The notes beneath the pieces are model-generated. The model saw nothing but the letters and a program-made list of their open reading frames with translations. It made no database searches and was not told the origin of the DNA. From Fibrobacter sp. (GTDB taxonomy: Bacteria > Fibrobacterota > Chitinivibrionia > Chitinivibrionales > Chitinispirillaceae), in the NCBI GenBank assembly GCA_012728995.1, contig JAAYEB010000478.1, forward strand, positions 1 through 36,933: 36,933 nt of DNA, in the 5' to 3' direction. Of this stretch, positions 332 through 33,552 are shown one piece after another (the first letter of the stretch is position 1; each line of letters opens with the position of its first letter). Position numbers and translations under genes: made by a program.

Positions 332-1336
332 ATGAATACAACAGAATCACAGCAATCCCAATTAGATAAAAAAGGACAGGGGTATGTATATCCTCCACCT
401 TATCTATATCCACAAGACAATTCAGATGAAATTAATCTACTTGAATACATTTATGTATTAGTTAAAAATAAGTGGTGGATTATTGGGGCGACTATCTTGG
501 GGTTGGTGTTGGGTTATGTAGCTGCTATTATAAAAGGACCAACTTGGATTTCCGAAGCGGTAATTGCAGCAAAAGAGAGTGATACTCAAAAAACACCCAA
601 TCTGTCAGGGTTAGGTGCTTTTGGCGGAATGGTTGCCAGTCAGCTTAATATTGCAGGAAGTCCTGGTTTGGATAAAATAGATCTTATTCTTGATAGCAGA
701 AAGTTTAATGCAGAGGTTATTGAAAAGTATAACCTTCTTTCACTTATATATAAAGTTTCTTGGCCAAAATTTTACAAGGAATTTTTTGATACGGTGAAAA
801 ATGAATGGGCTTCAGATTTTGTAAAGCCAAACTTGTTGAGAGTTGGAGGGTATGTTAAAAAAGAGTATCTTAAAAAAGAGACGAGTAAAAACAACACTAT
901 GACAATACAGTTTGAAAGTAGGGATTCTCTTTTTTCGGATTCTCTACTTGGGCTTTATCTCATTTATTTAAACGACTATATAAAAACTTCAGTGCAAACC
1001 GATGCAAATGAGAACGTTAAATACCTTGAATACCAGCTAATTACAGCTTCGGATCCTCTGTTACGTGAAAAATTACAAGGGATGATTGCAAATGAAATGG
1101 AAAAATCTATGTTGGTTAGTAAAGAAGCGTTTAAGATCGTGGATCCGAAACTGACTTTGAAAAAATTTAAAGAAAAAAAAATTATCCCTATTCTGTTTGG
1201 AAGTATCTTATTTGTTACTGCAATTTTGTTATTAATAATTGCACATGTTTTTTCTTTCACTGCGAAATCAACCGAAAATAGTCAATTAATACAGAAGATA
1301 TTTAAAGAATTACGATTATTTCCTAAAAGATCATGA
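332..1336 (+). CDS. Wzz-like polysaccharide chain-length determinant
   Basis: This 334-residue inner-membrane protein has the polysaccharide co-polymerase plan: a cytoplasmic N-terminus with a Tyr/Pro-rich stretch (residues 18-27), TM1 at about 48-67, a periplasmic part of about 215 residues, and a second TM near 287-308. In this family the protein sets polymer chain length together with Wzy. No Walker kinase domain follows, so it is a plain Wzz rather than a fused BY-kinase. The end of the periplasmic part (DPKLTLKKFKEKK) resembles the family's pre-TM2 segment, though it has fewer prolines than usual. The start codon at 332 has no clear ribosome binding site. It is the first gene of the + strand operon; Wzx follows 31 bases later. 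Confidence 0.8.
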   Translation: MNTTESQQSQLDKKGQGYVYPPPYLYPQDNSDEINLLEYIYVLVKNKWWIIGATILGLVLGYVAAIIKGPTWISEAVIAAKESDTQKTPNLSGLGAFGGMVASQLNIAGSPGLDKIDLILDSRKFNAEVIEKYNLLSLIYKVSWPKFYKEFFDTVKNEWASDFVKPNLLRVGGYVKKEYLKKETSKNNTMTIQFESRDSLFSDSLLGLYLIYLNDYIKTSVQTDANENVKYLEYQLITASDPLLREKLQGMIANEMEKSMLVSKEAFKIVDPKLTLKKFKEKKIIPILFGSILFVTAILLLIIAHVFSFTAKSTENSQLIQKIFKELRLFPKRS

Positions 1337-1367: not shown

Positions 1368-2747
1368 ATGTTATCTTTATATGGTGATAATAAAATCATA
1401 AATTTTTTCACCAAAGGTGGTCCTATTAGAAAATTGTTTAATACCTCATTTACTTTAAGTATAGTTAAATTGGGATCAGGCAGGATAATCGCTCAATTAA
1501 TTGCTTTTTTAATGACTCCTATATTATCAAGGTTATTCTTACCTAAAGAATATGGGTTATTGGGAATAGTTACTTCAATAAATGCAATAACGGTTGTGTT
1601 CTCAACATTAACTTATGATAAAGCAATTGTACTTCCCAAAGAGGATATCAAGGCGCAAGCGCTTACAAAAATCATTACTATACAGAGTATAATTATTTCA
1701 GTCATTTTCCTTTTTGGTTCAAATGCCGTTATTAGTTTTTTTCCAAAAACAATAAATGTTTCTGGGATCAATGAAATCCTCTTAATTTTACCAATGTTTA
1801 TTCTATTTAACGTCCAAAACATTGTGGGTAAAAATTGGGCTATCAGAAAGAAAATGTTTGGTTTAATTGCCCAAACATCAGTGGTTATTTCTTTTACAGT
1901 TTCTTTTGTTAAATTAATTTCCGGTTTATTAGGATTAACAAAGTATGGTCTGGTTATAGGAACATTGTTTGGTGAGTTCGCAGGTTTTTTCATATTCTTT
2001 TTTAGGATTTCTCCTTTTCGTTCTGCATTAATAAGTAAACAGCAGAATAATATAAAACAAATAGGGGCTGAATATATAGAATTCCCCAAATTTGGTTTTC
2101 CACAGAATGCATTGAATATTTTTAGTAGACGTTCGCCTGCATTGCTTCTTGGAATTTTCTTTACACCAGAAATCGTAGGGTATTTTTATTTTGGATATCG
2201 AATGATTATGCTTCCAATGGAACTATTGAATGAATCGATTCGAAGTGTATGTCTAAAAGAAATCGCTGATCGTATAAATAATAAAAAACCTCTTAAAAAA
2301 TTATTTCAAAGAAGTACAGGGTACATTCTTATAATTGGAATTGTACCTATTTTAATGCTAATAATTCTTGCGCCGCAACTATTCACTTTATTTTTTGGAG
2401 CAGCATGGGTTAAAGCTGGGATATATTCTCGCTGGTTAAGTATATGGGTTTTAATATTGTTCGTTAATATACCAGCAGTACAGGTGTTAATTGCATTGAA
2501 AAAACAAAAAAATTATTTACAAATAGCTATTTTCACGTTTATTAGTCGAATAGTTGGATTGTTTATAGGCGGTATATTGAAATCAGACGTATTAGCAATA
2601 GCTTTATTCTCGATTGCGGGAGCTTTGAATAATATTATAATTATTTTTGTAGCTTTTAAATGTGTTTGTAAATTCGATGAAAAAATTAATAAAATAGACC
2701 TCAGAAAACTAGTTATTAATTCGTCATATGATTTATCGAAAGGTTAA
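1368..2747 (+). CDS. Wzx-like polysaccharide flippase
   Basis: The 459-residue protein is almost entirely hydrophobic, with about a dozen predicted membrane segments. Its N-terminal pattern GSGRIIAQLIAFLMTPILSR followed by a short polar loop and PKEYGLLG is typical of the polysaccharide-export branch of the MOP/MVF superfamily. Such proteins flip undecaprenyl-diphosphate-linked repeat units across the inner membrane. Length matches the family. Only 3 bases separate its stop from tagD. A weak AAGG lies about 13 bases before the ATG, so a slightly later start is possible. Substrate cannot be read from sequence; the neighbours suggest a glycerol-phosphate-containing unit. Confidence 0.88.
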   Translation: MLSLYGDNKIINFFTKGGPIRKLFNTSFTLSIVKLGSGRIIAQLIAFLMTPILSRLFLPKEYGLLGIVTSINAITVVFSTLTYDKAIVLPKEDIKAQALTKIITIQSIIISVIFLFGSNAVISFFPKTINVSGINEILLILPMFILFNVQNIVGKNWAIRKKMFGLIAQTSVVISFTVSFVKLISGLLGLTKYGLVIGTLFGEFAGFFIFFFRISPFRSALISKQQNNIKQIGAEYIEFPKFGFPQNALNIFSRRSPALLLGIFFTPEIVGYFYFGYRMIMLPMELLNESIRSVCLKEIADRINNKKPLKKLFQRSTGYILIIGIVPILMLIILAPQLFTLFFGAAWVKAGIYSRWLSIWVLILFVNIPAVQVLIALKKQKNYLQIAIFTFISRIVGLFIGGILKSDVLAIALFSIAGALNNIIIIFVAFKCVCKFDEKINKIDLRKLVINSSYDLSKG

Positions 2748-2750
2748 AAT

Positions 2751-3164
2751 ATGGTAATCGGTTACACAACAGGTGTTTTCGATTTGTTTCATATTGGTCA
2801 TCTAAATATGTTAAGAAACGCAAAAGGATTATGTGATAAACTTATTGTTGGTGTAACAATTGATAAGCTGGTTTATTACAAAAATAAACAGCCCATTATT
2901 CCGTTTTCTGAACGAATTGATATCGTTCGTTCTTGCAAATTTGTAGATATCGCAATACCACAAGTAACTATGGATAAATATGAAGCATGGAAAAAACTTA
3001 AATTTGATATACTTTTTGTTGGAGATGATTGGTATAATACATCAAAATGGAATGACTTTGAGAATGAACTTAAGCAAGTTGATGTTAAAATTATATATTT
3101 CCCATATAGCAAAGATACAAATTCTACTCTTTTAGCAAATACACTAAAAAATTCAGTAAGGTAA
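2751..3164 (+). CDS. tagD: Glycerol-3-phosphate cytidylyltransferase (TagD-like)
   Basis: The enzyme makes CDP-glycerol from CTP and sn-glycerol-3-phosphate. The 137-residue protein has the nucleotidyltransferase signature GVFDLFHIGH (residues 8-17, HIGH at 14-17), the ERIDIVR segment at 54-60 and GDDW at 91-94. The C-terminal stretch YSKDTNSTLL (119-128) stands where TagD has its RTEGISTT-type signature and is clearly altered. Length matches TagD. It lies in an operon with a GpsA-like enzyme that can supply glycerol-3-phosphate and two TagF-like polymerases that can use CDP-glycerol, so the assignment is coherent. Other CDP-alditol or CDP-ethanolamine-type cytidylyltransferases share the fold, and the altered signature leaves some doubt about substrate. 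Confidence 0.85.
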   Translation: MVIGYTTGVFDLFHIGHLNMLRNAKGLCDKLIVGVTIDKLVYYKNKQPIIPFSERIDIVRSCKFVDIAIPQVTMDKYEAWKKLKFDILFVGDDWYNTSKWNDFENELKQVDVKIIYFPYSKDTNSTLLANTLKNSVR

Positions 3165-3172
3165 TTATATTG

Positions 3173-3850
3173 ATGAATATTTTTGATAGGATAGGTTTTC
3201 ATATACAAAATAATAACCGTAATATTAATACATTCCACAAATGTATTTCAGCAATCTTTGCTTTAATGCGAAACCAGTCATTAACGGGTAAAACATTACA
3301 GAAAACTTTAATATTATTAAAAGAAATAAGTAGTGACTTTAATGAATCTGGAGTAGATTATTGGATGGAGGGGGGAACTTTACTAGGTATTATAAGAGAA
3401 AATCGGCTTCTTCCATGGGACCATGATATCGATTTTTCTGTGAATATTGATCATGTAGACCTTGTCTTGTCATGTCTTCAAAATCTTAGAAAAAAGGGAT
3501 ATCGTATTGAGTATTTTCGTTACGATTTTGATATAGGGCCCTTTAAAAAAGGAATGCCTAGAATTATCAAAATACGAAACACCGTTTTGAAATATATAGG
3601 TGGAGATGCTTCTGCTGATATCTTTTTTAAAAAAAATGTTAATGGGAAATATTTCTGGACTACCGATTATACAATTCTTAAATCAACCCCTAGCATTTTT
3701 TGTAAAAATACCATAGGTTATACTTTTAATAAGCATAAAATTAAAATTCCTGCCAAATATGAAGACTATTTAGCTTGTCGTTATGGCTGTGATTGGCGTA
3801 TTCCAAAAAAAGATTATTGTCGACAAACTGATGATTTGGCAATAGTGTAG
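3173..3850 (+). CDS. LicD-family phosphotransferase
   Basis: The 225-residue protein has the LicD/fukutin-type nucleotidyltransferase-fold core: GGTLLG (residues 67-72) followed by PWDHDIDF (81-88), the acidic DHDID cluster being the metal-binding part. LicD proteins move phosphocholine, glycerol-phosphate or ribitol-phosphate from a CDP carrier to a glycan. It probably adds such a group to the polymer built by this operon. I placed the start at the ATG at 3173, with AAGG about 12 bases upstream; a TTG immediately before it would add one residue. It sits just before a LicC-like nucleotidyltransferase, but no choline kinase or choline permease is visible, so phosphocholine should not be assumed. 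Confidence 0.82.
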   Translation: MNIFDRIGFHIQNNNRNINTFHKCISAIFALMRNQSLTGKTLQKTLILLKEISSDFNESGVDYWMEGGTLLGIIRENRLLPWDHDIDFSVNIDHVDLVLSCLQNLRKKGYRIEYFRYDFDIGPFKKGMPRIIKIRNTVLKYIGGDASADIFFKKNVNGKYFWTTDYTILKSTPSIFCKNTIGYTFNKHKIKIPAKYEDYLACRYGCDWRIPKKDYCRQTDDLAIV

Positions 3851-3885
3851 ATTCTTATTTTAACTTAACTATAGGGAGTTATGAA

Positions 3886-4566
3886 ATGAACGTAATAAAT
3901 TCTGCCATTATATTAGCTGCAGGTATTGGAAGTCGATTTAATAGTAATTATCCAAAATGCCTTCATCGTCTCCCTAATGGGAATACAATTTTGGGCAATC
4001 AGATTTTACATCTTAAGCGCAATGGTGTAAAACAGATTATTGTTGTTGTTGGCTTTAAAAAAGAGATGATAATGGAAGCTTACCCAGATATTTTTTTTCA
4101 TTACAATCCTGAATTTAGATCAACCAACACCTCAAAAAGTCTCATGCGGGCATTTAAAAATTTATTACCTGGAAACTATATATGGATAAACGGGGATGTA
4201 TACCTTGATGATAATGTTATAAGAAAAATTATTATGGCCAAAGGTAATACGGTATGTGTTAACAACTCTATTTGTGGTGATGAGGAAGTAAAATACTGCT
4301 GTAATTCTGATGGTTTCATTACTGAAATTTCAAAAGATGTTAAGAATGGAGAAGGTGAAGCTGTTGGCGTAAATAAAATTTGTTATGAAGATTTTGAGAG
4401 ATTTGTTTTAGCACTAGAAGAGTGCGAACAAAATGATTATTTCGAAAAAGCTATTGAGATATCTATCGATGCTGGTCTTTTATTTACCTCCGTTAATGTC
4501 TCTGATTGCAGTTGTATTGAAGTAGATTTTAAAAGTGATATGGAGAGGGTTAATGAGCTCTTTTAA
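3886..4566 (+). CDS. LicC-like sugar/alcohol-phosphate nucleotidyltransferase
   Basis: The 226-residue protein begins IILAAGIGSRF (residues 8-18), the NTP-transferase loop, followed by the conserved Lys in YPKCL (residue 24). The NGD at 101-103 gives the metal-binding Asp, and an Asp near the C-terminus (VDFKSD) could be the second. The segment RSTNTSKSL (77-85) is typical of the LicC-like group that makes CDP-choline or related CDP-activated phospho-alcohols. It may supply the donor for the LicD-like protein encoded just upstream. An AGGGAG lies 7 bases before the ATG at 3886. The gene overlaps gpsA by 14 bases. The activated group is unknown. Confidence 0.8.
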   Translation: MNVINSAIILAAGIGSRFNSNYPKCLHRLPNGNTILGNQILHLKRNGVKQIIVVVGFKKEMIMEAYPDIFFHYNPEFRSTNTSKSLMRAFKNLLPGNYIWINGDVYLDDNVIRKIIMAKGNTVCVNNSICGDEEVKYCCNSDGFITEISKDVKNGEGEAVGVNKICYEDFERFVLALEECEQNDYFEKAIEISIDAGLLFTSVNVSDCSCIEVDFKSDMERVNELF

Positions 4567-5542
4567 TAAAATTGGGATTATAGGTGCAGGGGCATTTGGT
4601 ACTGCATTAGCAACTGTCCTTACGAGAAATGATTCTAATTGCGTAATATTATTTTCGATTGAAGCAGATGTTGTAGAGCAGATCAATACAAAGCATATTA
4701 ATGAAAAGTATTTTCCTAATATTATTCTTCCAATGAGGATAGTTGCAACAACAGAAGTTCAAAATATTATTGATTGTGATTATTTATTAATTGCTTTACC
4801 TTCCAGTGTCGTTGTACCATTTGTAAAAAGCATATCATCACAAATACCGGATAAAACTATTCTTATTAATCTTGCGAAAGGGTTTGGTAATAACGGAATT
4901 ATAACCAGTGAATTGGAAAAAATCACAAAAAATACGATCTGTTCTATAAAAGGGCCGACTTTTGCAATAGAACTGATCCGAGGTCTTCCTGCTGGTATAA
5001 CATTAGCTACAAATGAGAATCGAAATGTGGATAAAATTCGAGAATTGTTTTCTGGAAGTCACTTATCTCTCGATTATTCAGATGATATGACAGGTGTGGA
5101 GATGTTGAGTATTTTAAAAAATATTTATGCAATCTTGATTGGATTAGTTGATGCATATTATGATTCTACAAATGTAAGATTCATGGTATTAACAAAAGCA
5201 TTTGAGGAGATTAAATATTTGTGTAATCTATGGGGAGGTGAAGAAGAAACATTATTCAAATATTGCGGAATTGGAGATTTTTGTTTAACTTCCCTTAATG
5301 ATTTAAGTAGAAATAGAACCTTGGGTTTACTGGTTGGTAAAGGATTTTTGGGTAGTGTATGTTATGATGGTGTCATTCTTGAAGGAAAACGTTCGTTAAA
5401 ATTAATATATCAAAACTCATGTACACACGATCCAAACGCTTTACAATATTTACCGCTTTTAACCGAGTTGTACAGAATTTTTTATTCAGGATCTATGCCA
5501 GTAAAATCTATAAAGAATATTGTAAATGTAATTACAATATAA
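4553..5542 (+). CDS. gpsA: GpsA-like NAD(P)-dependent glycerol-3-phosphate dehydrogenase
   Basis: The 329-residue protein has the nucleotide-binding GAGAFGTALA (residues 11-20), NLAKGF with the active-site Lys (109), GPTFAIE (134-140), a second Lys in ILKN (189) and SRNR (252-255), which binds the phosphate in the family. It would reduce dihydroxyacetone phosphate to sn-glycerol-3-phosphate, the precursor TagD needs. The stretch that is normally GDN...TRG is changed here (DSTN at 204-207, LTKAF at 213-217), so it looks like a specialised paralogue. I chose the ATG at 4553 because GGAGAGG lies 4 bases upstream; the GTG at 4535 lacks one. The start overlaps the preceding gene by 14 bases, suggesting coupled translation. 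Confidence 0.83.
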   Translation: MSSFNKIGIIGAGAFGTALATVLTRNDSNCVILFSIEADVVEQINTKHINEKYFPNIILPMRIVATTEVQNIIDCDYLLIALPSSVVVPFVKSISSQIPDKTILINLAKGFGNNGIITSELEKITKNTICSIKGPTFAIELIRGLPAGITLATNENRNVDKIRELFSGSHLSLDYSDDMTGVEMLSILKNIYAILIGLVDAYYDSTNVRFMVLTKAFEEIKYLCNLWGGEEETLFKYCGIGDFCLTSLNDLSRNRTLGLLVGKGFLGSVCYDGVILEGKRSLKLIYQNSCTHDPNALQYLPLLTELYRIFYSGSMPVKSIKNIVNVITI

Positions 5543-5553
5543 GGGATGTTTTT

Positions 5554-6747
5554 GTGGTTAAACATATACTTAATATTATTTATTTATTTATTTATTGGAT
5601 AACATGGATTTTTCCCAAAGACAAAAATTTATTTGTATTCGGGTCAGCAAAAGGAATTCATTTTTCTGATAATAGTAAATATTTGTTCCTTTATCTTATT
5701 AACAAAAAAGATAATATTCGAAAACAATGTTATTGGATTACAAAAAATAAAGAACTCGTTATCTGGTTAAAAAAAAACAAATTACCTTGTCTTTATTACT
5801 ATTCATTTTTTGGATTGTATAAATTTTTACGTGCAAAAACGATTATCATTTCTTACAATTTAAATAATGTTATTAAAATATTAATAGGGGGTAAAAAAGT
5901 AATAAATCTGTGGCATGGTGTTCCACTAAAAAAAATAGGTTACGATGCAGATGATATTAAAAAAAAGAGTATTAACATTCGTTATTGGTTAAAGTGGCTC
6001 TGGGCGCATGTAGCACCATTTCAGTATTATGCATTTTGTCATGAAATAATTTGTACTTCCAAAAACATGCTTCCTTATTACCATAGTGCATTTCGAATTT
6101 CCAAGCCGAAAATAATCATTTCTGGCCAACCTAGAAATGATATTTTAAGCTCAAAATATATTTTTAAAAGTGAATTGTTTCCAGAAATACAATTTTTAAA
6201 GCAAATTAAAACAAAAAACCAAATTATTGTATCTTGGTTACCCACTTACCGAAAAGAAACCCCTATTGAAACTATATATTTCAATTCAAAAACATTTCTG
6301 AATGTTTTATTTGATTTTTTTGCTGAAAACGATATGAAACTTATAATTAAACCTCATCATGCAGAAAGAGGTTTAATTAAAAAAGCAATTTATGGGAAAA
6401 GAAATGTAATAATGTATAAATTTGTTGATCCATACCCATTACTTCGTTATACAGATGTACTTATTACTGATTATTCGAGTATCTTTTTTGATTATCTTCT
6501 TCTTAACCGTCAAATTATATTTAACCCATTTGATTATGATGAGTACAGTAAAACAGTAGGTTTCAATATAGATTATATGCAAAATACTCCAGGCCCAAAA
6601 TGTATGAATTGGGAAGAAGTTACAAATGAATTAAAAAACAGGCAAAATGATTCTTTTAATGAATTTAGACAAAAAATTAAAAAATACGTGTTTAAATATG
6701 ATGATTTTAACAGTTGCAAAAGAATTCAGAAACTATATTTCTCCTGA
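5554..6747 (+). CDS. CDP-glycerol glycerophosphotransferase 1 (TagB/TagF-like)
   Basis: The 397-residue protein carries the landmarks of the CDP-glycerol glycerophosphotransferase family: WHGVPLK (from 120), GQPRND (191-196), LPTYRKE (229-235), KPHH (266-269) and TDYSS (305-309), followed by FDYDEY. The two His motifs and TDYSS match positions linked to catalysis and donor binding in TagF. It would transfer glycerol-phosphate from CDP-glycerol to a membrane-linked acceptor on the cytoplasmic face. Longer frames exist upstream, but the GTG at 5554 is preceded by AAGGGA at a suitable distance and avoids a large overlap with gpsA. A hydrophobic N-terminal stretch (5-20) suits membrane association. 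Whether it primes or polymerises cannot be told. Confidence 0.88.
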   Translation: MVKHILNIIYLFIYWITWIFPKDKNLFVFGSAKGIHFSDNSKYLFLYLINKKDNIRKQCYWITKNKELVIWLKKNKLPCLYYYSFFGLYKFLRAKTIIISYNLNNVIKILIGGKKVINLWHGVPLKKIGYDADDIKKKSINIRYWLKWLWAHVAPFQYYAFCHEIICTSKNMLPYYHSAFRISKPKIIISGQPRNDILSSKYIFKSELFPEIQFLKQIKTKNQIIVSWLPTYRKETPIETIYFNSKTFLNVLFDFFAENDMKLIIKPHHAERGLIKKAIYGKRNVIMYKFVDPYPLLRYTDVLITDYSSIFFDYLLLNRQIIFNPFDYDEYSKTVGFNIDYMQNTPGPKCMNWEEVTNELKNRQNDSFNEFRQKIKKYVFKYDDFNSCKRIQKLYFS

Positions 6748-6750
6748 AAT

Positions 6751-7917
6751 ATGATAAATAATTATTTTACAAGATTATTATTAAAGTTAATACCTTTGAT
6801 AAATAGACTATTCCCTAAAAAGAATAAGGCAATATTTTCTTCTGAGTCGGGGTACACTGATAACGCAAGAGCTATGTATGAATACATTAGCCGAAATAAA
6901 GATGTTGAAGTCGTATGGGTATTTAACAAATTGACAGAAGAGGTGATGGCAAAAAAATATGGTGTTACAGTGAAACGGAATACTTTCCATTTTATTTATC
7001 ATATTTTTACATCTCGTTATATTTTTACAACACACTTCGAATTTATAAATTTAGTAAATGATAAAAAACAGCTTTATATAAACCTATGGCATGGCATGCC
7101 ATTTAAAAACATTGAGTTACTAGATCAAGTTGAACCAAAGAAAAGTCATAATCATTCACTTAAAATACTAAGAAAAATAAGGTCTTATTCATTTGTAAAT
7201 TCTGAATTTTACCGCCTTGTTTTTTCGGCTTCATTTGATTTACAGGTGAATAAGGTTGTTGCGCTAGGTCAACCCAGAATTGATTTTTTCTTCAATGATA
7301 AACCAAAACCAAAATTTATTGAGAAATATAGTAAAGTGCTATTATATTGTCCTACATACAGAAATAGTAGCGGAAAGTATAAAAGGAATGATTCGGGTTG
7401 GAATATAAATAGATTTAAAAAAGCATGCATTACAAAGAAATTCGTCAACTTTCTTGAAAAAGAAAATTATCTTTTTATAATAAAGCTACATCCTTTTGAA
7501 AAAAATACACTAAATGTAAACACTTCTAACGATATTAAAAATATTTTAGAAATTAAAAGTGATTATTTGCTCAAAAACAACACAGACCTATATGAACTAC
7601 TTAAGTATACTGATTTATTAATAACTGATTACTCTTCAATTTTTATTGATTATATGATTTTGAACAGACCAATCATATATCTAATAGAAGATTACGATGA
7701 GTATACTAAATCAAGAACATTTCTTTTAAATAAATTTGAACAATTTTCTCCGGGACATATTATTAAAACCGCCTCTAAATTAATTCCTACGATTAAAGAA
7801 GCATTAATAAATGATCCTTATAAACTAAAACGATCTGAATTAAATAAGTTGATAAATGATAAATTAGGTCAACATAGTATTTGTAAAAAAATAACTGACT
7901 TTTTAAATATCATGTAG
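6751..7917 (+). CDS. CDP-glycerol glycerophosphotransferase 2 (TagB/TagF-like)
   Basis: This is a second member of the same family, 388 residues, starting 3 bases after the first. Landmarks are WHGMPFK (113-119), GQPRID (173-178), CPTYRNS (200-206), KLHPFE (245-250) and TDYSS (292-296). The His motif here is the standard KxHP, while the neighbouring copy has KPHH. The two copies are clearly diverged in sequence and are not a fresh duplication. Two family members side by side recall the TagB (primase) plus TagF (polymerase) pair of wall teichoic acid synthesis, which is my inference. It likely acts at the inner face of the cytoplasmic membrane. Confidence 0.9.
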   Translation: MINNYFTRLLLKLIPLINRLFPKKNKAIFSSESGYTDNARAMYEYISRNKDVEVVWVFNKLTEEVMAKKYGVTVKRNTFHFIYHIFTSRYIFTTHFEFINLVNDKKQLYINLWHGMPFKNIELLDQVEPKKSHNHSLKILRKIRSYSFVNSEFYRLVFSASFDLQVNKVVALGQPRIDFFFNDKPKPKFIEKYSKVLLYCPTYRNSSGKYKRNDSGWNINRFKKACITKKFVNFLEKENYLFIIKLHPFEKNTLNVNTSNDIKNILEIKSDYLLKNNTDLYELLKYTDLLITDYSSIFIDYMILNRPIIYLIEDYDEYTKSRTFLLNKFEQFSPGHIIKTASKLIPTIKEALINDPYKLKRSELNKLINDKLGQHSICKKITDFLNIM

Positions 7918-7927
7918 TTTAATTAAA

Positions 7928-9250
7928 ATGATTAATTGTCACTTTAAACAGGTCATTATTACTTTATTCATAACCATAATCTCATTTCAGAACATACTTA
8001 ATGTTTATTTTTATGGTTTGACAGAATTTGGATTTTTTGCAAATGTATTACCAATTCTAAAAGATTCGATTCTTTTATTTATTACTTTTGTTGCTTTTAT
8101 TCTTTGTCTTCCAAAATGGAAAATCAATAAAAATCTGATTGGTATTTATATTTTTATTTTTTTATTTTTATCAATAAATATGTTTTTAGCAATCGGATCA
8201 TCTGCAGGGAAAGTTAATATAATTTACAATTTACGTCGGATGTTTACTTTGCTAATTGCATTTATAACTTTCTCAATCCTTCCATTAACAAATGAAATTG
8301 TAAAGAGAATAAAGAAAGTTGTTGTGTTAGTAACATATGTAGTATGTTTATTTGGTTTATTTGAATACTTTTTACCTGATTCATTTTGGGATAAAATATT
8401 AAAAATACCATTATTTTGGAAAGGACAATCTATAGATCCTTGGGGTGCATCGAAGATTGCTAACAGCGGAAGATTTTACACATATGACCTATATTTTATC
8501 TTGGGTAGAACTGTCCGAAGAATGGTTTCTTTTTATTGTGAACCAACAACTTTAGGTAGCTTTTTAAGTTTCGTATTACCATTTTATGCATTCGAAGGAA
8601 GATGTAACAAAAAGAAAATAATATTTATCAGTTTAATAGTTGTATCAGGACTACTTGTCATGTCAAAAGCCTTTATTCTTACTATTTTAGTGGTATTATT
8701 TTTTTCAATATTTAGAAAAGCTGATTACAAAAAAGTAGTTTTATTTACTATTTGTTTTTACGTTTTTGCGATGATTCTCACTAACATGGGCTTGACAAAA
8801 GGGCCATTCAGTCATATTTATGGTTTTTATTCAAGTTTCAATATAATTATAACTCAGAAAAAATATTTCGGATATGGGATTGCTAAAGCTGGTAACTATA
8901 AAGATGCCTATGATAAAACCAGTGAAATTATTGGTGGAGGTGAAAGTGGATTTGGAAATATGGTTGCTCAGAGTGGGGTTGTTGCTTTCATTTTTATAAT
9001 AATAATATTTTTAATTTTGAGAATTGCTTCGAAAAATTATCATTACACTCGCAATAATGATTATTATGCAATATTTGTTGCTATGGTTTGTTGGTATTTA
9101 ATTTACCTTTATTCTGCATCAAGCTTAGGTTTTTCAGGTAATATATTCTTTTTTATGTTTTCAGGAATTTTATTAAACAATCAACTTCTATTAAAAAATT
9201 ATGAAAAAAGTTCTTTTTTTAACACCACAATTGCCTTATCCACCGATTAG
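7928..9250 (+). CDS. Wzy/O-antigen-ligase-like membrane protein
   Basis: This is a 440-residue polytopic protein with roughly ten to twelve membrane segments and a longer polar loop around residues 155-200 and another near 295-350. The stretch FYCEPTTLGSFLSFVLP is reminiscent of Wzy/WaaL-type proteins, which often have a conserved acidic residue followed by small residues at a membrane edge. Proteins of this type polymerise flipped repeat units or ligate the polymer to an acceptor in the periplasm. Sequence alone does not separate polymerase from ligase; with Wzx and Wzz in the operon, polymerase is more likely. The last 50 bases overlap the next gene in another frame. Confidence 0.75.
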   Translation: MINCHFKQVIITLFITIISFQNILNVYFYGLTEFGFFANVLPILKDSILLFITFVAFILCLPKWKINKNLIGIYIFIFLFLSINMFLAIGSSAGKVNIIYNLRRMFTLLIAFITFSILPLTNEIVKRIKKVVVLVTYVVCLFGLFEYFLPDSFWDKILKIPLFWKGQSIDPWGASKIANSGRFYTYDLYFILGRTVRRMVSFYCEPTTLGSFLSFVLPFYAFEGRCNKKKIIFISLIVVSGLLVMSKAFILTILVVLFFSIFRKADYKKVVLFTICFYVFAMILTNMGLTKGPFSHIYGFYSSFNIIITQKKYFGYGIAKAGNYKDAYDKTSEIIGGGESGFGNMVAQSGVVAFIFIIIIFLILRIASKNYHYTRNNDYYAIFVAMVCWYLIYLYSASSLGFSGNIFFFMFSGILLNNQLLLKNYEKSSFFNTTIALSTD

Positions 9251-10397
9251 TGGTGGAACAATTAAAAGCTGGAAAATAATAGAATACCTTTCAAAAAAAT
9301 ATAATGTAACACTTTGTTGTTTTTTAAAAGGAAATGATTCCGAATATGTGGAAGAATTTCTCTTAAAAATAAAATTAGATAAATTTTATTCTATACCATA
9401 TGAAAAAAAAAGAAATCTTCTTAATTGGGTGAAAAGTGTAATCTTTAAAATACCATTAAATATTTACCGAAATAGAAATGATAAATTAAGGAAATATGTT
9501 AAATCAATAAAAAAGGAATACGAATGTATATTTGTTGATCATTACCTTATGTTTCAATATGTCGAGAATTTTAAAAAAAGTTATATCATTTTTCATCAAC
9601 ATAATGCCGAATTTGTTATGTGGCAAAGATTAGCTGAACTTAATAAAAATCTATTTATGAAAACCGCCATAAAAATAGAATCAAATCGAATAGCTGCTTA
9701 TGAAAAATGTATTTGTAAAAAAGCACATGTTGTTTTTGCCGCTCCAAATGATATCAAGAGCCTAATCAGTTTGGGATTAGAAAAAACAATATTCCGAACT
9801 ACTTATCATCTTGGAGTTGAAGAATTATTGTATGAAACGGATTTGAACTTTGACCAGACAGAAGAAGCTATCTTATTTGTAGGAAATTTACAATGGGAAG
9901 CAAATATCGATGGGCTTCTTTGGTTCCTTAAAGGTGCTTGGAAAGAAATAAAGAGAAAAAAAAAGAACCTTGTTTTCTATATAGTAGGCAAAAATCCTGA
10001 TAAACGTATAGTCCATGAGTGTAAAAAACATGTAGATGTGATTTTAACGGGTTTTATAGATAATTTATTACCAATATACAACAAATCTCGTGTTTGTGTA
10101 TGTCCATTGAGATTTGGAAGTGGTATTAAAGTTAAAATAATCAATAGTTTATATAGGGGATTACCAGTAGTAACAACTCCAGTGGGAGTAGAAGGGCTAA
10201 GTGTCATTAATGGAAAAGAACTATTCTTTTCTTCTGAACTCAATCAAATATGTAAACATATAGTAGAATTATTATCAAATAGGGATTTGTGGAGCTATAT
10301 TAGTGTGAATGGGAGAAGTATTGCAAAAAAACTATACACATGGGACAATATACTGAAAGATATTGATTCTAGTATAGATAATTGCATATCTGGTTAA
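9201..10397 (+). CDS. GT4-like glycosyltransferase
   Basis: This is a 398-residue GT-B-fold enzyme. The N-terminus KKVLFLTPQLPYPPISGGT has the Gly-rich acceptor-side loop. The C-terminal half begins at ILFVGNLQWEANIDGLLWF and includes FGSGIKVKIINSLYRGLPVV followed by TTPVGVEGL, the donor-binding region of 'Glycosyl transferases group 1' proteins. It would add a sugar to the lipid-linked intermediate; donor and linkage are unknown. It starts inside the preceding gene (50-base overlap) with only an A-rich leader as a possible binding site. It is the only classical sugar transferase in the operon besides the WecG/TagA-type enzyme, so the repeat unit may be sugar-poor. Confidence 0.85.
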   Translation: MKKVLFLTPQLPYPPISGGTIKSWKIIEYLSKKYNVTLCCFLKGNDSEYVEEFLLKIKLDKFYSIPYEKKRNLLNWVKSVIFKIPLNIYRNRNDKLRKYVKSIKKEYECIFVDHYLMFQYVENFKKSYIIFHQHNAEFVMWQRLAELNKNLFMKTAIKIESNRIAAYEKCICKKAHVVFAAPNDIKSLISLGLEKTIFRTTYHLGVEELLYETDLNFDQTEEAILFVGNLQWEANIDGLLWFLKGAWKEIKRKKKNLVFYIVGKNPDKRIVHECKKHVDVILTGFIDNLLPIYNKSRVCVCPLRFGSGIKVKIINSLYRGLPVVTTPVGVEGLSVINGKELFFSSELNQICKHIVELLSNRDLWSYISVNGRSIAKKLYTWDNILKDIDSSIDNCISG

Positions 10398-10410
10398 AAA
10401 CATTTATGTT

Positions 10411-11265
10411 ATGACAAAACAGACAGACTGGCTTTTTAGATTCTGTAATGCAATTAAAAAAGAAGAAATAAAAATGATATCTAATGATCGACTGTTAAAT
10501 ATTCCTGTTACACCTTTTACCAGTTTCCAAAACTGCATTGAGTGTATTCTTAAACTACTCTCTAATTCAGATAAGAATAAATATTCAATTTTTACTCCAA
10601 ATGTGCATCACTTCTATTTGTATAATTCAGATTCGGAAATGAAAAAAGCTTATGATTCCTGTACTTTATCACTTATAGATGGTATGCCGTTAGTATGGAC
10701 TTACAGATTACTTAAAAAGAGAAAGGTTGTTAAAGTATCTGGATCTGATGTTTTTTCTTATTTACTACCTATTTTGGTTAAAAAAAACAAGAAAATATTT
10801 TTATTGGGTGGTGAAGAAGGTGTTGCTAAAAATGCAGTAAACAATTTGTGTAGTGATATAAATCATCGAATTTTTACATATTCACCTCCATTTGGATTTG
10901 AAAAAAAATCAAATCAAAATTATATCATTTTAGATAAAATTAACAAAATAAAACCAGATATTCTCTTTGTTGCATTCGGTGCCCCAAAACAGGAAAAATG
11001 GATATATGCTAATTTAAAAAAAATAAACGCAAAAATAGCAATTGGGGTTGGAGGTTCTTTTGATTTTGCTGCCGGAATTCAAAAACGGGCTCCAGTATGG
11101 ATGCAAAAGTTGTCTTTGGAGTGGTTTTACAGGCTGCTTTGTAACCCTAAAAGATTGTTTAAAAGGTATTTGATAACAAACAGCTTCTTCATTTTGATAT
11201 TGATGTTCGAGGTTTTAAAAATGACAATTTCCAAAATTTGTAGACATAAAATATTTAGACGATAA
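10411..11265 (+). CDS. WecG/TagA/CpsF-family glycosyltransferase
   Basis: This 284-residue GT26-type enzyme has FTPNVHHF (61-68) with the conserved Thr, DGMPLVW (90-96) with the putative catalytic Asp, LLGG (131-134), GAPKQE (190-195), IGVGGSFDF and a C-terminal basic tail WFYRL...NPKRLFKRY. In wall teichoic acid synthesis TagA adds N-acetylmannosamine to undecaprenyl-PP-GlcNAc to form the linkage unit; WecG does a similar step with ManNAcA. Here it could complete the linker onto which glycerol-phosphate is built. An alternative start at the ATG at 10474 gives a more usual length (about 263 residues). The first 21 residues (WLFRFCNAIKK) loosely echo the C-terminal motif, perhaps by chance. 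It is the last gene of the operon. Confidence 0.9.
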   Translation: MTKQTDWLFRFCNAIKKEEIKMISNDRLLNIPVTPFTSFQNCIECILKLLSNSDKNKYSIFTPNVHHFYLYNSDSEMKKAYDSCTLSLIDGMPLVWTYRLLKKRKVVKVSGSDVFSYLLPILVKKNKKIFLLGGEEGVAKNAVNNLCSDINHRIFTYSPPFGFEKKSNQNYIILDKINKIKPDILFVAFGAPKQEKWIYANLKKINAKIAIGVGGSFDFAAGIQKRAPVWMQKLSLEWFYRLLCNPKRLFKRYLITNSFFILILMFEVLKMTISKICRHKIFRR

Positions 11266-11766: not shown

Positions 11767-12978
11767 GTGCAAAAAAAGGATTTCGATAAAAGCGGTAACG
11801 GTTCTGAAAAAGATTCAGATCTGGTTATTGCAAGAAAAATTCAGGCAGCAATGATCCCCAGAAGTTTTCCGGCTGTTGAGGGGCTGGAAATTAATTCGGT
11901 ATATCTTCCTTGCGGTGCTGTGGGAGGAGATCTTTTCGATTGTATTCAAATCTCAGATGACATTCTGGCTTTCTTAATTTTTGATGTAACTGGTTTTGGC
12001 ATCTCGTCTGCATTGATTTCTGCAATGGCCAAAGTTTGTTTTATGCACCATATAAATCTTGGTGTTTCACCCCGTGCTGTAATTAGTCGTGTAAATTCTG
12101 AAATAATTGGTAATATTAACGCGGATTTTTATTTAACCGCATTTCTGTGCTATCTTAATCTTCATGATAATAAACTGTCCTTTTGCAATGCAGGACATGC
12201 TTATCCATTTATTTACAGGAAAAAAGAGGGTAAATGCATTTCACTTAAAACTCAAGGAACATTTATTGGTGTTTTCAAGGATACTTTCTTTGATGAGCAA
12301 TATGAATATCTCAATCCTGGTGACACCCTTTTTATGTTTACAGATGGAGTTTATCGGTTGTTTTCTGATGATTACAATAAAGGGCGGAAAATGTTTGAAG
12401 CTGAATTGACTGGACATTTAAGTACACAATCCCCAAAGGAGTTTCAAACTTTCATCGAAGAAAAAAATCAAAAAACCGATTACATGGAAGATGATATTAC
12501 AATCATGAGTGTCGAGGTTCAGACTCAGTCACGAAAAAATCAGATAAAGGAGAAACTCGGTTTTTCTGCAGAAGCGCCGGTATATTTGCAGATTTTCAGC
12601 TACTTTGAAGAAATTGATAAAGCTATCAGCGTAATCCTTGCTTCGATGGATTCGTATGGTTTTCCAGATGAATCAATAAGAAAAATGAAGATAGCTCTTA
12701 CAGAATTACTTGTAAATGCAATCTCACATGGAAACAAGAAAGATTTTTCAAAGAAAGTTGTAATGGGGCATATCATAGACAAAAAACAGATAACAATATC
12801 CATTATGGACGAAGGAAGTGGGTTTAATCCAGACTCTGTACCAGATCCAACTACTCCTGAAAATTTGAGTAAAAATTGTGGCCGTGGATTGTTTATTGTT
12901 AAACATTATGTCGATACGGTGGTGTTTAATGATAAAGGAAACAGGGTAACTGTTACCAGGTATCATTCTGTCAGATAA
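11767..12978 (+). CDS. SpoIIE/RsbU-type PP2C phosphatase fused to an RsbW-like ATPase domain
   Basis: The 403-residue cytoplasmic protein joins two halves of partner-switching control. Residues 15-250 are a SpoIIE phosphatase with GGD (53-55), DVTG (73-76), FCNAGHAYPF (139-148), TDG (192-194) and DD (242-243), the metal-binding acids of the family. Residues 275-400 are a GHKL/HATPase domain with ELLVNAISHGN (313-323), DEGSGF (348-353) and GRGLF (372-376), as in RsbW/SpoIIAB anti-sigma kinases. Known families act on STAS-domain anti-sigma antagonists or sigma factors, but none is encoded nearby and there is no sensor domain. The GTG start at 11767 has no strong binding site. It lies 11 bases ahead of coaE. 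Confidence 0.88.
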   Translation: MQKKDFDKSGNGSEKDSDLVIARKIQAAMIPRSFPAVEGLEINSVYLPCGAVGGDLFDCIQISDDILAFLIFDVTGFGISSALISAMAKVCFMHHINLGVSPRAVISRVNSEIIGNINADFYLTAFLCYLNLHDNKLSFCNAGHAYPFIYRKKEGKCISLKTQGTFIGVFKDTFFDEQYEYLNPGDTLFMFTDGVYRLFSDDYNKGRKMFEAELTGHLSTQSPKEFQTFIEEKNQKTDYMEDDITIMSVEVQTQSRKNQIKEKLGFSAEAPVYLQIFSYFEEIDKAISVILASMDSYGFPDESIRKMKIALTELLVNAISHGNKKDFSKKVVMGHIIDKKQITISIMDEGSGFNPDSVPDPTTPENLSKNCGRGLFIVKHYVDTVVFNDKGNRVTVTRYHSVR

Positions 12979-14703: not shown

Positions 14704-16080
14704 ATGCTAAAGGAACACTCATCTTTCGTTAAACAATCAATTGCCATTCTGGATTGTTTTTTATTGATAGTTGCTTTTTATCTTTCCTACCTGTTTATTG
14801 TTCCTTACAGGAAACTTGATCCGATTCTCAATTACTGGTTAATGATTGTTGGATTTATGGGTTTTTACCTTTACTTTGCCTGGACACGATCTCTTTTCTC
14901 AATAATGCATTTTAACTGGATGCGAGGGCTTTTAAGCCGGATAGTAATGATTTTTATTTCTGCTGCTTTGTTGGGTGCTGCAATTCTTTATCTTTTCCCC
15001 GATGATCGTAACAGCAGATATCTTTATTTGACATTTGCCTATCTGTCATTTGTTTTCATTTCATTAGAAAAAATTATTGTAAAGAGAATCATCGCTCGTG
15101 TACGATTGAAAAATGAGAACAATTCACCTGTTATCATTGTAGGAAGAGGACGAATTGCTGCTCAAATCAGTCAGGAAATTGGATGTAATCCACAATGGGG
15201 GATTCGGGTCATCAGAAAGTTGGATTTAAGTATTGAGCCAAGGGCCTTAGAAGAAGTACTTAAAAACTGCTATGTAGAGGAAGTCTTTTTCTGTGTTCCC
15301 AGAAAATTAACCAGAGATGGTATTACGATTGACCCGCTTCTTCAGATTTGTGAAGAAATGGGAAGGCCTGCACGTGTGTTCCTTAATATTTCGGGAGCGA
15401 CTTATTTTGCCAGGTGGGAATATCATCATTTTATGGAACGCCCTACCTTGATTTCTCATACAGTAGAACTGGATCCGGATCAGCTTTTTCTTAAGCGTTC
15501 ATTTGATGTTTTTGGGGCAATAATAGCTTCCATTTTCCTTGTAATTCTTTATCCATTCCTTGCTATAGCCATAAAGGTGACCTCAAAAGGACCAGTATTT
15601 TTTAAGCAGGTCAGAGTCGGTAAAAATGGAAAGCGATTTGTTATTTATAAATTCAGGTCAATGAAAAATGATGCAGATAAGAAAAAAAAGGAGCTTGAGA
15701 AATTAAATCAATGTGATGGTGCTTTTTTTAAAATAAAAGAGGATCCGCGTGTGACAGCGGTTGGTAAATTGATGAGAAAGTTCAGTATAGACGAAATACC
15801 TCAGGTAATTAATGTATTAAAAGGGGAAATGTCACTTGTAGGTACTCGACCACCCACTCCTGATGAGGTTGCTCAATATCAAAAATGGCACCATAGAAGA
15901 ATTAGTATCAGACCGGGAATTACCGGATTATGGCAGGTTTCGGGACGCAGCAAAATTACTAATTTTGATGAAATCGTGAAACTCGATTTGAATTATATTG
16001 ATAACTGGAGTATCTGGCTTGATATTAAAATCATTCTTAAAACAATACTGGTTATTTTCGAACGTGATACAGCGTATTAA
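14704..16080 (+). CDS. Polyprenyl-phosphate sugar-1-phosphate transferase (WbaP/WcaJ type)
   Basis: This is a 458-residue initiating transferase. Residues 10-140 hold four membrane segments, 140-255 a Rossmann-like domain (VIIVGRGRIAAQIS), and 262-458 the catalytic bacterial sugar transferase domain. That domain shows KRSFDVFGA at its membrane helix, YKFRSMKNDAD, SIDEIPQVINVLKGEMSLVG, TRPPTPDE and RPGITGLWQVSGRS. It moves a sugar-1-phosphate from a nucleotide sugar to undecaprenyl phosphate and thereby starts a lipid-linked glycan. It is the only initiating enzyme in the window and probably serves the upstream polymer operon; this is inference, since 3.4 kb separate them. The sugar (glucose, galactose or an amino sugar) is not readable. 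Confidence 0.93.
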   Translation: MLKEHSSFVKQSIAILDCFLLIVAFYLSYLFIVPYRKLDPILNYWLMIVGFMGFYLYFAWTRSLFSIMHFNWMRGLLSRIVMIFISAALLGAAILYLFPDDRNSRYLYLTFAYLSFVFISLEKIIVKRIIARVRLKNENNSPVIIVGRGRIAAQISQEIGCNPQWGIRVIRKLDLSIEPRALEEVLKNCYVEEVFFCVPRKLTRDGITIDPLLQICEEMGRPARVFLNISGATYFARWEYHHFMERPTLISHTVELDPDQLFLKRSFDVFGAIIASIFLVILYPFLAIAIKVTSKGPVFFKQVRVGKNGKRFVIYKFRSMKNDADKKKKELEKLNQCDGAFFKIKEDPRVTAVGKLMRKFSIDEIPQVINVLKGEMSLVGTRPPTPDEVAQYQKWHHRRISIRPGITGLWQVSGRSKITNFDEIVKLDLNYIDNWSIWLDIKIILKTILVIFERDTAY

Positions 16081-17560
16081 AATAATTTTATTGGCAGTGA
16101 TCATATCGATTGTTTTTACCTCCTTTTCAGCTTATGGTTATCAGTTGAAAAACTGGAGACAGGCTTATTTTACGTTAGCAACACGGTTTGATCTGGCACA
16201 ATCTTTATCGAAAAGCAACATGTTCTGGGATGATCTTCGAAGTGTTTACCTATTCGATTCATCACTATGGAACAAAAATAAAGTAAGTGAAAATGAAAAT
16301 TTCTGGTTTATTGAACCTTCAATAGGTGGAGGACTTTTATATCCTTCCGATAAAAGGAAAAAAAATGGTTACAATAATATCGGACTTTTCAATGAGATCC
16401 GTTACAGAAATATTCTTATAAGGCAAACTGCTGATATTGACAGCAGGTATAAATATGACAAATTCTATCCTGCGCATCGGAACAGGGCAATGCAGGGGAG
16501 AATTGATGAAGCATATTTGCAGTATAACTGGAAATATGGTTTTTTGCGTTTGGGCAGAATGAATCGCAACTGGGGACCATTTACAGATCGAAGTCTTGTC
16601 TTGTCCTCTTATCCATACAGTTATGATGCTTTTGAGTGGGAGATCCATACATCTCTTTTTGAATTCAGACATCTCTTTTCACCTTTTAATTACAAACGTT
16701 CAAATTGGGATACAGACAACAACTCAAAAATAAATCGATACCTGACAGCACACTCACTAAACATATTGATTGGAGAATGGATCACTTTAGGAATCACTGA
16801 AACTGTAGTTTTTACCAGAAAAGAAGGATTGCCAGATTTACAGTATGTAAATCCGATGTCAATTTATACCGTTACGAATACGAATCAGGAAGGTGATGGT
16901 AATCTGATGCTGGGGTTTCAATGGAAGGTATACCCGTTTACAAAACGCCTGATATTCAAAGGGCAGATTGCACTGGATGATTTTCAGGTAGACAATGAGA
17001 AGGTGACAGATCAGGAACCGGCACATTGGGGGTGTGATATTGGATTATTCTGGCTTGATCCTTTTAATATACCTCAAAGAAATCTTTTCAGGGCTGAATA
17101 TAGTAAAAGATCAGAATGGCTCTACACCGTTACTGATGCAAATGGGAAAAAAGGTGAGCGATATACTTATCTGGGTAAAAGTCTGGGACTACCATTAATT
17201 GATGGAGATAAGGTTAGTATAGGGTTTGATATTGTTGGAAATAATTTTTGGGCTTTTTCGTATGACTTTGCATATTGTCGTCAGGGTGCAAATACGGCTT
17301 TAACCAGATGGAAAGATAGTGAACCTGGTAATGAAAAAGGACTCCCGATTGAAACAGATTATCCATATGAAAACCGTATCGAGACGTCAATGCAAGCTCT
17401 TTTTTATTATAAAAACTATGTGGATTTGAAACTTGAAGTATGTGCAGGATGGATTAAAAATAACGACAATATAAAGACCAGATCATTCGAATTTTCACCT
17501 CTTGTTGATGTTACACTTACATTGCATTACAGTAATTTTTCTGTTAAATTACCAAAATGA
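16064..17560 (+). CDS. wzi: Wzi-like capsule assembly outer-membrane protein
   Basis: The 498-residue protein has a clean signal peptide (hydrophobic residues 5-20, cleavage near YGYQ), then many alternating beta strands rich in aromatic residues. The stretch LQYNWKYGFLRLGRMNRNWG, the following PFTDRSLVLSS, and the PMSIYT motif are typical of the Wzi family, an outer-membrane barrel involved in holding or assembling capsule at the surface. The chosen GTG at 16064 overlaps the end of the preceding gene by 17 bases and gives a proper signal peptide; the longer frame from 15998 adds residues that spoil it. No strong binding site precedes the GTG, so it may depend on translational coupling. Confidence 0.82.
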   Translation: MIQRIKIILLAVIISIVFTSFSAYGYQLKNWRQAYFTLATRFDLAQSLSKSNMFWDDLRSVYLFDSSLWNKNKVSENENFWFIEPSIGGGLLYPSDKRKKNGYNNIGLFNEIRYRNILIRQTADIDSRYKYDKFYPAHRNRAMQGRIDEAYLQYNWKYGFLRLGRMNRNWGPFTDRSLVLSSYPYSYDAFEWEIHTSLFEFRHLFSPFNYKRSNWDTDNNSKINRYLTAHSLNILIGEWITLGITETVVFTRKEGLPDLQYVNPMSIYTVTNTNQEGDGNLMLGFQWKVYPFTKRLIFKGQIALDDFQVDNEKVTDQEPAHWGCDIGLFWLDPFNIPQRNLFRAEYSKRSEWLYTVTDANGKKGERYTYLGKSLGLPLIDGDKVSIGFDIVGNNFWAFSYDFAYCRQGANTALTRWKDSEPGNEKGLPIETDYPYENRIETSMQALFYYKNYVDLKLEVCAGWIKNNDNIKTRSFEFSPLVDVTLTLHYSNFSVKLPK

Positions 17561-18350: not shown

Positions 18351-19481
18351 CTAAAAATCAGTATACAAATTCTGATAATTTTCGGTCATAATAGCTGCGG
18401 TGTATTTATTATGAACCGCGGTAATATTATTATGAATTATGGTTTTTCGTAATGATGGATCTGCAAGAAGGCCCAAAATTGCTTTTGTTAGATCAGCAAC
18501 ATTTCCGGGTTCAACGAGAAGCCCGTTTATTTTGTTTTGAATGATTTCCGGGATACCACCTACATTTGAAGCAATTATCGGGCATTCTGCAGCCATTGCT
18601 TCAAGAAGAATCATAGGCAGCCCTTCTTTAAGCGAGGGTAATACTAAAATGTCAAAGAGTTTTAAGAGCTGGGCAATATCTGATCGTGGGCCAATAAATA
18701 AAACATTTTTTTCTATGCCAAGAGATAAGGTTTGTTTCTTCAGATCATGCTTAAAAGGCCCATCCCCGGCCACTATAAGGCAACTATCTGGGTGACTATT
18801 AATAATAGCCGGCATGGATTTGAATAAATTATCTATTCCCTTTATTGCAATCAATCGTGAAATAATTCCTAATATCGGCCCTTTGGATAATATATCAAAT
18901 TCTTTCTTTTTATTGATTTTATCAATGTTTATTGAATAAAAAGCAGGATCTATTCCATTTAAAATGGTAGTGATTTTGGATCTGGGAATACGTTCATATT
19001 CATGAAGCTCCCTGGATGTGTAATCAGAAACACCTACGATTCTGGAAACAAAATGGGAGATAAACCATTCGGCTATCATATATCTTCTTTTGTCAGGGTA
19101 GATTTTTGCATGATCGGTGTGTATTACTCTTTTTACCCCGGAAAGTAATGCTGCAATACCACCTTCTATTAGTGGTTGAGTATTATGAGTATGAACTACA
19201 TCTGGTTTATTCTGTTTAAAAAATTTGGCAATCTTCAAAAAAGTGAAATAATCTATACCAGCCTGTTTTTGTGGGATAAGGGTTACAGGTATTCCCAATT
19301 GTTCAATTTCTGTACTAAAAGTACCTTTTTTCCTGAGGCATAATACGCTGATATCAAATCTTGATTTGTCTATATTCCGGCAAATATTTACTATTACTTT
19401 CTGGAGACCACCCATTTCCAGATCATGTGTTACTTGTAAAATCTTGAATTTTCGACTTGGCAGAACGTTTATCGTACTCAT
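18351..19481 (-). CDS. GT4 glycosyltransferase
   Basis: This is a 376-residue GT-B enzyme. The N-terminal half has ILQVTHDLEMGGLQKVIVNI, the classic Gly-rich acceptor-side loop of GT4, and DVVHTHNTQPLIEG. The C-terminal half has GIISRLIAIKGID, VAGDGPFK, FIGPRSDI and the donor-binding EGLPMILLEAMAAECPIIAS with the E-x7-E pair. It would transfer a sugar from a nucleotide donor in the cytoplasm. It lies 50 bases downstream of a polysaccharide deacetylase on the same strand and is probably cotranscribed. It runs opposite to the polymer operons but may work on the same envelope glycan; the substrate is unknown. Confidence 0.92.
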   Translation of the reverse strand: MSTINVLPSRKFKILQVTHDLEMGGLQKVIVNICRNIDKSRFDISVLCLRKKGTFSTEIEQLGIPVTLIPQKQAGIDYFTFLKIAKFFKQNKPDVVHTHNTQPLIEGGIAALLSGVKRVIHTDHAKIYPDKRRYMIAEWFISHFVSRIVGVSDYTSRELHEYERIPRSKITTILNGIDPAFYSINIDKINKKKEFDILSKGPILGIISRLIAIKGIDNLFKSMPAIINSHPDSCLIVAGDGPFKHDLKKQTLSLGIEKNVLFIGPRSDIAQLLKLFDILVLPSLKEGLPMILLEAMAAECPIIASNVGGIPEIIQNKINGLLVEPGNVADLTKAILGLLADPSLRKTIIHNNITAVHNKYTAAIMTENYQNLYTDF

Positions 19482-33444: not shown

Positions 33445-33552
33445 AAGTTCAACATGTTTTTGATCAATAAAACCTGAAAAATTCCATTAGTTATTTTAAT
33501 CTGAATAGAGACTTATATTTTTGAACACAAATAACACAAACTCCGGTTGTCT

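Follow-up and report, generated by a model that had tools for sequence, protein, structure and literature searches.

Teichoic-type phospho-alcohol enzymes in a probable Wzx/Wzy-type surface polymer cluster of a diderm Fibrobacter

Teichoic-type chemistry joined to Wzx/Wzy-type export has already been published for Gram-negative O-antigens and for Gram-positive capsules and teichoic acids, and the polymer cluster described here, on a contig of Fibrobacter sp. (GCA_012728995.1, JAAYEB010000478.1), is ordinary in principle. In the diderm Hafnia alvei PCM1220, tagD and a putative glycerol phosphate transferase gene lie in the wzx/wzy cluster of the O-antigen, whose structure contains glycerol (PMC4869667). 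In the synthesis of pneumococcal teichoic acid TacF serves as the flippase and TarP/TarQ, described as topologically similar to Wzy/Wzz, as the polymerase (PMC13385700); a pneumococcal 11F-like capsule carries gct (PMC12534171); and a proposed model for the decorations of the enterococcal polysaccharide antigen (EPA) of Enterococcus faecalis combines TagA-, TagB- and LicD-type enzymes with a Wzx/Wzy route (PMC7188991). The contrast that the original prediction drew with Firmicutes, where teichoic chemistry leaves the cell by an ABC exporter and not by Wzx/Wzy/Wzz, was therefore too strict. We read the cluster as an O-antigen or capsule locus of the Wzx/Wzy type, gained by horizontal transfer, with an oligosaccharide repeat substituted or bridged by one or more phospho-alcohols that probably include glycerol-phosphate, and give this reading, horizontal acquisition included, a probability of about 0.7; the repeat perhaps carries a second phospho-alcohol as well.

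Each of these systems resembles the locus in part. An exopolysaccharide cluster on a Lactiplantibacillus plantarum plasmid (NZ_CP035115.1) shares with it a GNVR (Wzz-type) gene, a polyprenyl-phosphate hexose-phosphate transferase (PHPT), glycosyltransferases, EpsG (Wzy-type), a PF04464 transferase, a flippase and the best plasmid match of our TagD-like protein (62% identical), but is Gram-positive, has a CpsD kinase and one PF04464 gene, and has no LicD, LicC-like or GpsA gene annotated. Hafnia alvei PCM1220 shares the diderm envelope and the company of tagD and a putative glycerol phosphate transferase with wzx/wzy, whereas its tagD is 89% identical to an E. coli gene and the available part of the source mentions no LicD or LicC-like genes for it (PMC4869667). 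The Streptococcus pneumoniae pathway has phospho-alcohol repeats, a MOP flippase, Wzy/Wzz-like polymerisation and both LicC and LicD (PMC13385700); it differs in using phosphocholine via LicA/LicB and in having no outer membrane. EPA offers TagA-/TagB-type and LicD-type enzymes proposed to work with a Wzx/Wzy route (PMC7188991), but also CDP-ribitol from a TarI homologue, a rhamnan backbone and proposed LCP ligation. Finally, TagF-like group 2 capsule polymerases combine a Gram-negative TagF fold with glycerol-phosphate, with a glycerol-3-phosphate cytidylyltransferase (GCT) in the capsule cluster (PMC5974469, PMC8262930), but are multidomain and do not belong to the Wzx/Wzy repeat-unit route.

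The window, the whole stretch of 36,933 nucleotides that we analyzed, is one entire contig (C460 in our numbering) of a 4.97 Mb draft assembly of 486 contigs, 97.65% complete, so that absences from the genome reported below are not absolute. Between positions 332 and 11265 all genes lie on the same strand with overlaps or gaps of at most about 36 bases, in the order Wzz, Wzx, TagD-like, LicD, LicC-like, GpsA, two PF04464 genes (TagF1 and TagF2), a polytopic protein, GT4 and WecG/TagA (Table 1); families were assigned by Pfam curated cut-offs, NCBIfam models and PDB profile matches. The TagD-like, GpsA, TagB/TagF-like, WecG/TagA, Wzx and Wzz genes of the original prediction were all recovered in place above Pfam cut-offs, as was a GT4, but its gene list overlooked the LicD and LicC-like genes, and with these the operon comprises two activating enzymes and three phosphotransferases, which alters its reading. 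Its count of only two sugar transferases was likewise too low, as a PHPT and a further GT4 lie downstream and genes upstream may be missing. GC content is 26-31% in the cluster and 32-39% over the remainder of the window; low GC is usual in exchanged polysaccharide clusters. Repeats inside the cluster resemble chance AT-rich matches. The genome encodes LpxC, and the cell is therefore a diderm with lipid A synthesis.

Table 1. Positions of the predicted features within the window and the matches behind each assignment.
Feature	Position	Strand	Evidence
Wzz-type chain-length regulator	332..1336	+	PF02706 E=3.3e-12; two terminal membrane spans
Wzx-type MOP flippase	1368..2747	+	PF13440 (Polysacc_synt_3) E=3.1e-25; at least 10 membrane spans
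TagD-like cytidylyltransferase, divergent subfamily	2751..3164	+	PF01467 (CTP_transf_like) E=2.2e-20
LicD-family phosphotransferase	3170..3850	+	PF04991 E=2.5e-13; FKRP catalytic core match E=4.3e-7
LicC-like cytidylyltransferase, NTP_transf_3	3886..4566	+	PF12804 E=1.9e-11
GpsA-type glycerol-3-phosphate dehydrogenase	4553..5542	+	PF01210/PF07479 (N and C domains); 3k96 E=7e-37
TagB/TagF-type CDP-alcohol phosphotransferase 1 (TagF1)	5554..6747	+	PF04464 (Glyphos_transf) E=2.3e-58
TagB/TagF-type CDP-alcohol phosphotransferase 2 (TagF2)	6751..7917	+	PF04464 E=3.7e-63
Polytopic membrane protein in Wzy position	7928..9250	+	at least 9 predicted membrane spans; no family match
GT4-type glycosyltransferase	9201..10397	+	PF13692 E=5.7e-23; TIGR03087 resemblance below cut-off
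WecG/TagA/CpsF-family glycosyltransferase	10411..11265	+	PF03808 E=2.3e-55; TIGR00696 above cut-off
PHPT-type initiating sugar-phosphate transferase, probable starter	14704..16080	+	PF02397 E=5.1e-68
Wzi-like outer-membrane protein, weak	15998..17560	+	PF14052 E=6.5e-6; 25.8 bits vs Pfam cut-off 30.1
Second GT4	18351..19481		Pfam match

The best evidence for glycerol-phosphate is the GpsA of the operon, which is probably dedicated to the cluster since another GpsA copy of the genome lies on contig C235. The CDP-glycerol site whose loss the original prediction had proposed to check for is retained in both PF04464 proteins: the histidine codons at 5914 and 6355 in TagF1, and at 7090 and 7489 in TagF2, match His444 and His584 of Staphylococcus epidermidis TagF (3l7i), and the ITDYSS motif (DYSS) is kept in both. 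The asparagine at the first histidine position in PDB entries 3l7j and 8va1 reflects the H444N and H300N variants, and both histidines are catalytically important in Gram-negative TagF-like enzymes (PMC5974469). The AlphaFold model of TagF1 is weak (mean pLDDT 51.6); a fold search with it returned TagF as the best match (E=1.9e-14), together with TarL with CDP-ribitol and capsule polymerases. The start of TagF1 is uncertain, the longest open reading frame beginning at 5419. Both proteins, each of about 390 residues, align to approximately residues 354-699 of the 729-residue TagF and lack the N-terminal region of that polymerase, which makes it likelier that they add single units than that they build a long poly(glycerol-phosphate) chain. 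The LicD protein has the core GGTLLGxxR...PWDxDxD, supported by a PF04991 match above cut-off and by alignment to the FKRP core, and no plasmid relative of it was found.

The TagD-like and LicC-like enzymes are probably both CTP-dependent activators. The label TagD-like holds for the first insofar as it has a PF01467 domain, the HxGH motif and Lys44 (alignment A1), but it scores 78.8 bits against the NCBIfam GCT model TIGR01518, below the cut-off of 165.4, and its RTxGISTT signature is degenerate, with PYSKDTNST at the site of the canonical PRTEGISTT-type motif, tyrosine in place of Arg113 and the GIS core gone; Arg113 is essential in Bacillus subtilis TagD (PMC8262930). The protein matches GCT, ethanolamine-phosphate cytidylyltransferase and HldE-type sequences about equally strongly. 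Its close relatives lie in polysaccharide clusters: the L. plantarum gene overlaps a PF04464-type gene annotated as CDP-glycerol glycerophosphotransferase family, a Companilactobacillus tagD-like/PF04464 pair is accompanied by genes for a flippase and a protein of the O-antigen ligase family, and in Parabacteroides tagD-like is followed by licD, the same adjacency as in our cluster.

The LicC-like protein matches LicC best among PDB entries (1jyk, E=1.4e-7) and PntC next (6pd1), and the nucleotidyltransferase consensus GxG(T/S)R-x4-8-PK (PMC6697681) is present in it as GIGSRFNSNYPK (subfamily alignment A4). In the characterized enzymes an acidic residue faces the substrate amine, D105 in LicC and E104 in PntC (PMC6697681); our protein has Asn102 at this site in both pairwise alignments, where the LicC chain numbering is offset from that of the paper and its DAD motif is assumed to be D105-A-D107. 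Asn102 is invariant across nine aligned proteins of the subfamily (alignment A4), and no choline kinase was found in the genome, which together argue, on the sequence side from this single residue, for a neutral polyol as substrate over choline or aminoethyl compounds. Relatives that share 40-50% identity with it come from Deltaproteobacteria, Bacteroidota, Actinomycetota, Desulfurella, Solidesulfovibrio and one genome of the same family, with LicD and/or PF04464 genes near each in the neighborhoods that could be read. We tentatively suggest that this is an unrecognized subfamily, spread over several phyla, whose members produce CDP-glycerol or some other CDP-polyol and have a fold that is not related to that of TagD, and that the operon might feed two different phospho-alcohols into one Wzx/Wzy repeat, a proposal we regard as possible but doubtful.

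The groups transferred could instead be other than glycerol-phosphate, with the TagD-like and LicC-like enzymes activating ribitol-, ethanolamine-, aminoethyl- or rarer polyol phosphate for transfer by the PF04464 and LicD proteins. The even matches of the TagD-like protein and its missing Arg113, the resemblance of the LicD core to FKRP, a ribitol-phosphate transferase, and the proximity of another PF04464 gene of the genome to a PntC-like NTP transferase-aminotransferase protein all lean that way; but we consider this account unlikely in view of the probably dedicated GpsA, the failure to recognize TarI/TarJ-like CDP-ribitol genes in the window or a choline kinase in the genome, and the pairing of the closest TagD relative with a CDP-glycerol glycerophosphotransferase family gene, an annotation by family only. 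A phosphocholine-like or aminoalcohol decoration of the Lic type, with a second group supplied by TagD/GpsA/TagF, would suit the adjacency of the LicC-like and LicD genes and the name "phosphocholine cytidylyltransferase family" that NCBI gives to plasmid relatives of the LicC-like protein, but is disfavored to the point of being very improbable by the absent choline kinase and by the invariant asparagine that replaces the amine-contacting LicC Asp105/PntC Glu104 (PMC6697681). The other PF04464 gene belongs to a locus on contig C366 (2899-9680), where the PntC-like nucleotidyltransferase-aminotransferase fusion, a membrane protein with a sulfatase domain and a member of the YidC family are encoded near it. 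That locus perhaps serves phosphonate (aminoethyl) transfer, in which case the PF04464 enzymes of this genome would use more than one donor; a literature search on aminoethylphosphonate in Fibrobacter turned up nothing relevant.

On the export side, the MOP flippase (PF13440), Wzz (PF02706) and a lipid-carrier initiating transferase (PHPT, PF02397) are in place, and these family matches, the LpxC of the genome and the results below on LCP and TagGH support the idea that this diderm ties phospho-polyol chemistry to export of the Wzx/Wzz type. The gene first called Wzy-like does encode a polytopic protein in the Wzy position, but a Pfam search gave it no family match at thresholds as loose as E = 1; no relative of it was found in the phylum genomes or in plasmids, its structure model from single-sequence folding is poor, and its label rests on topology and gene position. 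The predicted outer-membrane Wzi survives as a match to PF14052 below the Pfam cut-off; its reading frame overlaps that of the PHPT by 83 bases and its start is uncertain. No LCP ligase (PF03816) was matched in the genome by a search that gave matches in control genomes. The check for TagG/TagH-type exporters yielded four ABC-2 permease matches, which adjoin DrrA-, NatA- or YbhF-like ATPases, in one set with an HlyD-type protein, and no polysaccharide genes; read by eye, they are DrrAB-, NatAB- or YbhFSR-like, and none is a plausible TagGH. Because these read as drug- or NatAB-type exporters, a TagGH route is unlikely.

These results also bear on whether the cluster is a true teichoic acid pathway in a diderm, a reading close to the original prediction, in which TagA/TagB-type enzymes would build a linker and the principal product would be a chain of poly(glycerol-phosphate). 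The co-occurrence of TagD-like, TagA-family and two PF04464 genes fits it, as do three MraY/WecA/TagO-family enzymes elsewhere in the genome. We nevertheless reject a wall-teichoic-acid pathway, which has only a slim chance of being right, on the lack of LCP and TagGH in the genome; the short PF04464 proteins without the N-terminal region of TagF, and the Wzz, Wzx, GT4 and PHPT genes, which indicate a sugar repeat, point the same way.

The presence of a WecG/TagA enzyme, a GT4 and a PHPT favors a repeat that contains sugars, with phosphopolyols as substituents or bridges, over the mostly glycerol-phosphate repeat first proposed. In the pathway that we infer for the Wzx/Wzy-type polymer, as to its donors, acceptors, order of steps and final attachment, the PHPT enzyme, or a WecA-like enzyme encoded elsewhere, would place the first sugar on undecaprenyl phosphate, to which WecG/TagA and GT4 would add sugars. 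GpsA would provide sn-glycerol-3-phosphate, the TagD-like and LicC-like enzymes would produce one or two CDP-alcohols, and TagF1, TagF2 and LicD would each move a phospho-alcohol from CDP-alcohol donors. Wzx would then flip the repeat unit, the membrane protein in the Wzy position may polymerise it and Wzz would determine chain length, with the finished polymer located on the outer surface.

Several points weigh against this Wzx/Wzy-type glycerol-phosphate polymer. The roles of the proteins and the composition of the polymer are predictions from gene content. CDP-glycerol synthesis by a TagD-like enzyme without Arg113 and the GIS core of an essential motif is not assured, and besides glycerol-phosphate, enzymes of the TagF fold transfer hexose-phosphate (PMC8262930) and, in the case of TarL, ribitol-phosphate. 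No family match supports the Wzy candidate. The source is a multi-contig draft, and wzz lies close to the start of its contig, where the cluster may be truncated and upstream genes may be missing. Several Wza-type genes lie on other contigs, none of them linked to ours, and no assembly overlap was found between the start of the window and the contigs with Wza-like genes.

The gene-order comparison called for by the original prediction, made within the phylum, bears on recurrence of the arrangement. The relatives searched as the same phylum, which we take to be Fibrobacterota, include many genomes of 2-4 Mb. We fetched 38 TagF-bearing loci chosen from matches in 168 genomes and detected genes within about 10 kb with custom iterated hidden Markov models, so that the counts are approximate. 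A MOP flippase was present in 27 of the 38 loci, a TagD-like protein, a class that may include other cytidylyltransferase-like proteins, in 20, and both in 12; the TagF-flippase arrangement thus recurs in the phylum. One locus, read by eye, combines TagF with IspD/TarI- and alcohol-dehydrogenase-like genes, which suggests that it makes CDP-ribitol. At another (L115, genome G018), a gene that joins a TagD-like domain to a GFO/IDH/MocA oxidoreductase (5693-7036) adjoins a short-chain dehydrogenase gene and a PF04464 gene, and the fusion may make an unusual CDP-polyol.

The window also encodes a SpoIIE-type phosphatase-HATPase fusion (RsbU/RsbW-like; 11767-12978), located after the polymer cluster and before the PHPT/Wzi genes, and a CotH-domain protein (33547-36156) in which a lamin-tail domain and, at the C-terminus, a Por-type sorting domain are also present.

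The cluster adds a diderm lineage to the bacteria that place teichoic-type phospho-alcohols on Wzx/Wzy surface polymers. Less ordinary are its two activating enzymes, both of them unusual. Should the LicC-like subfamily make a CDP-polyol, many genes automatically annotated as phosphocholine cytidylyltransferase in unrelated bacteria would be misnamed.

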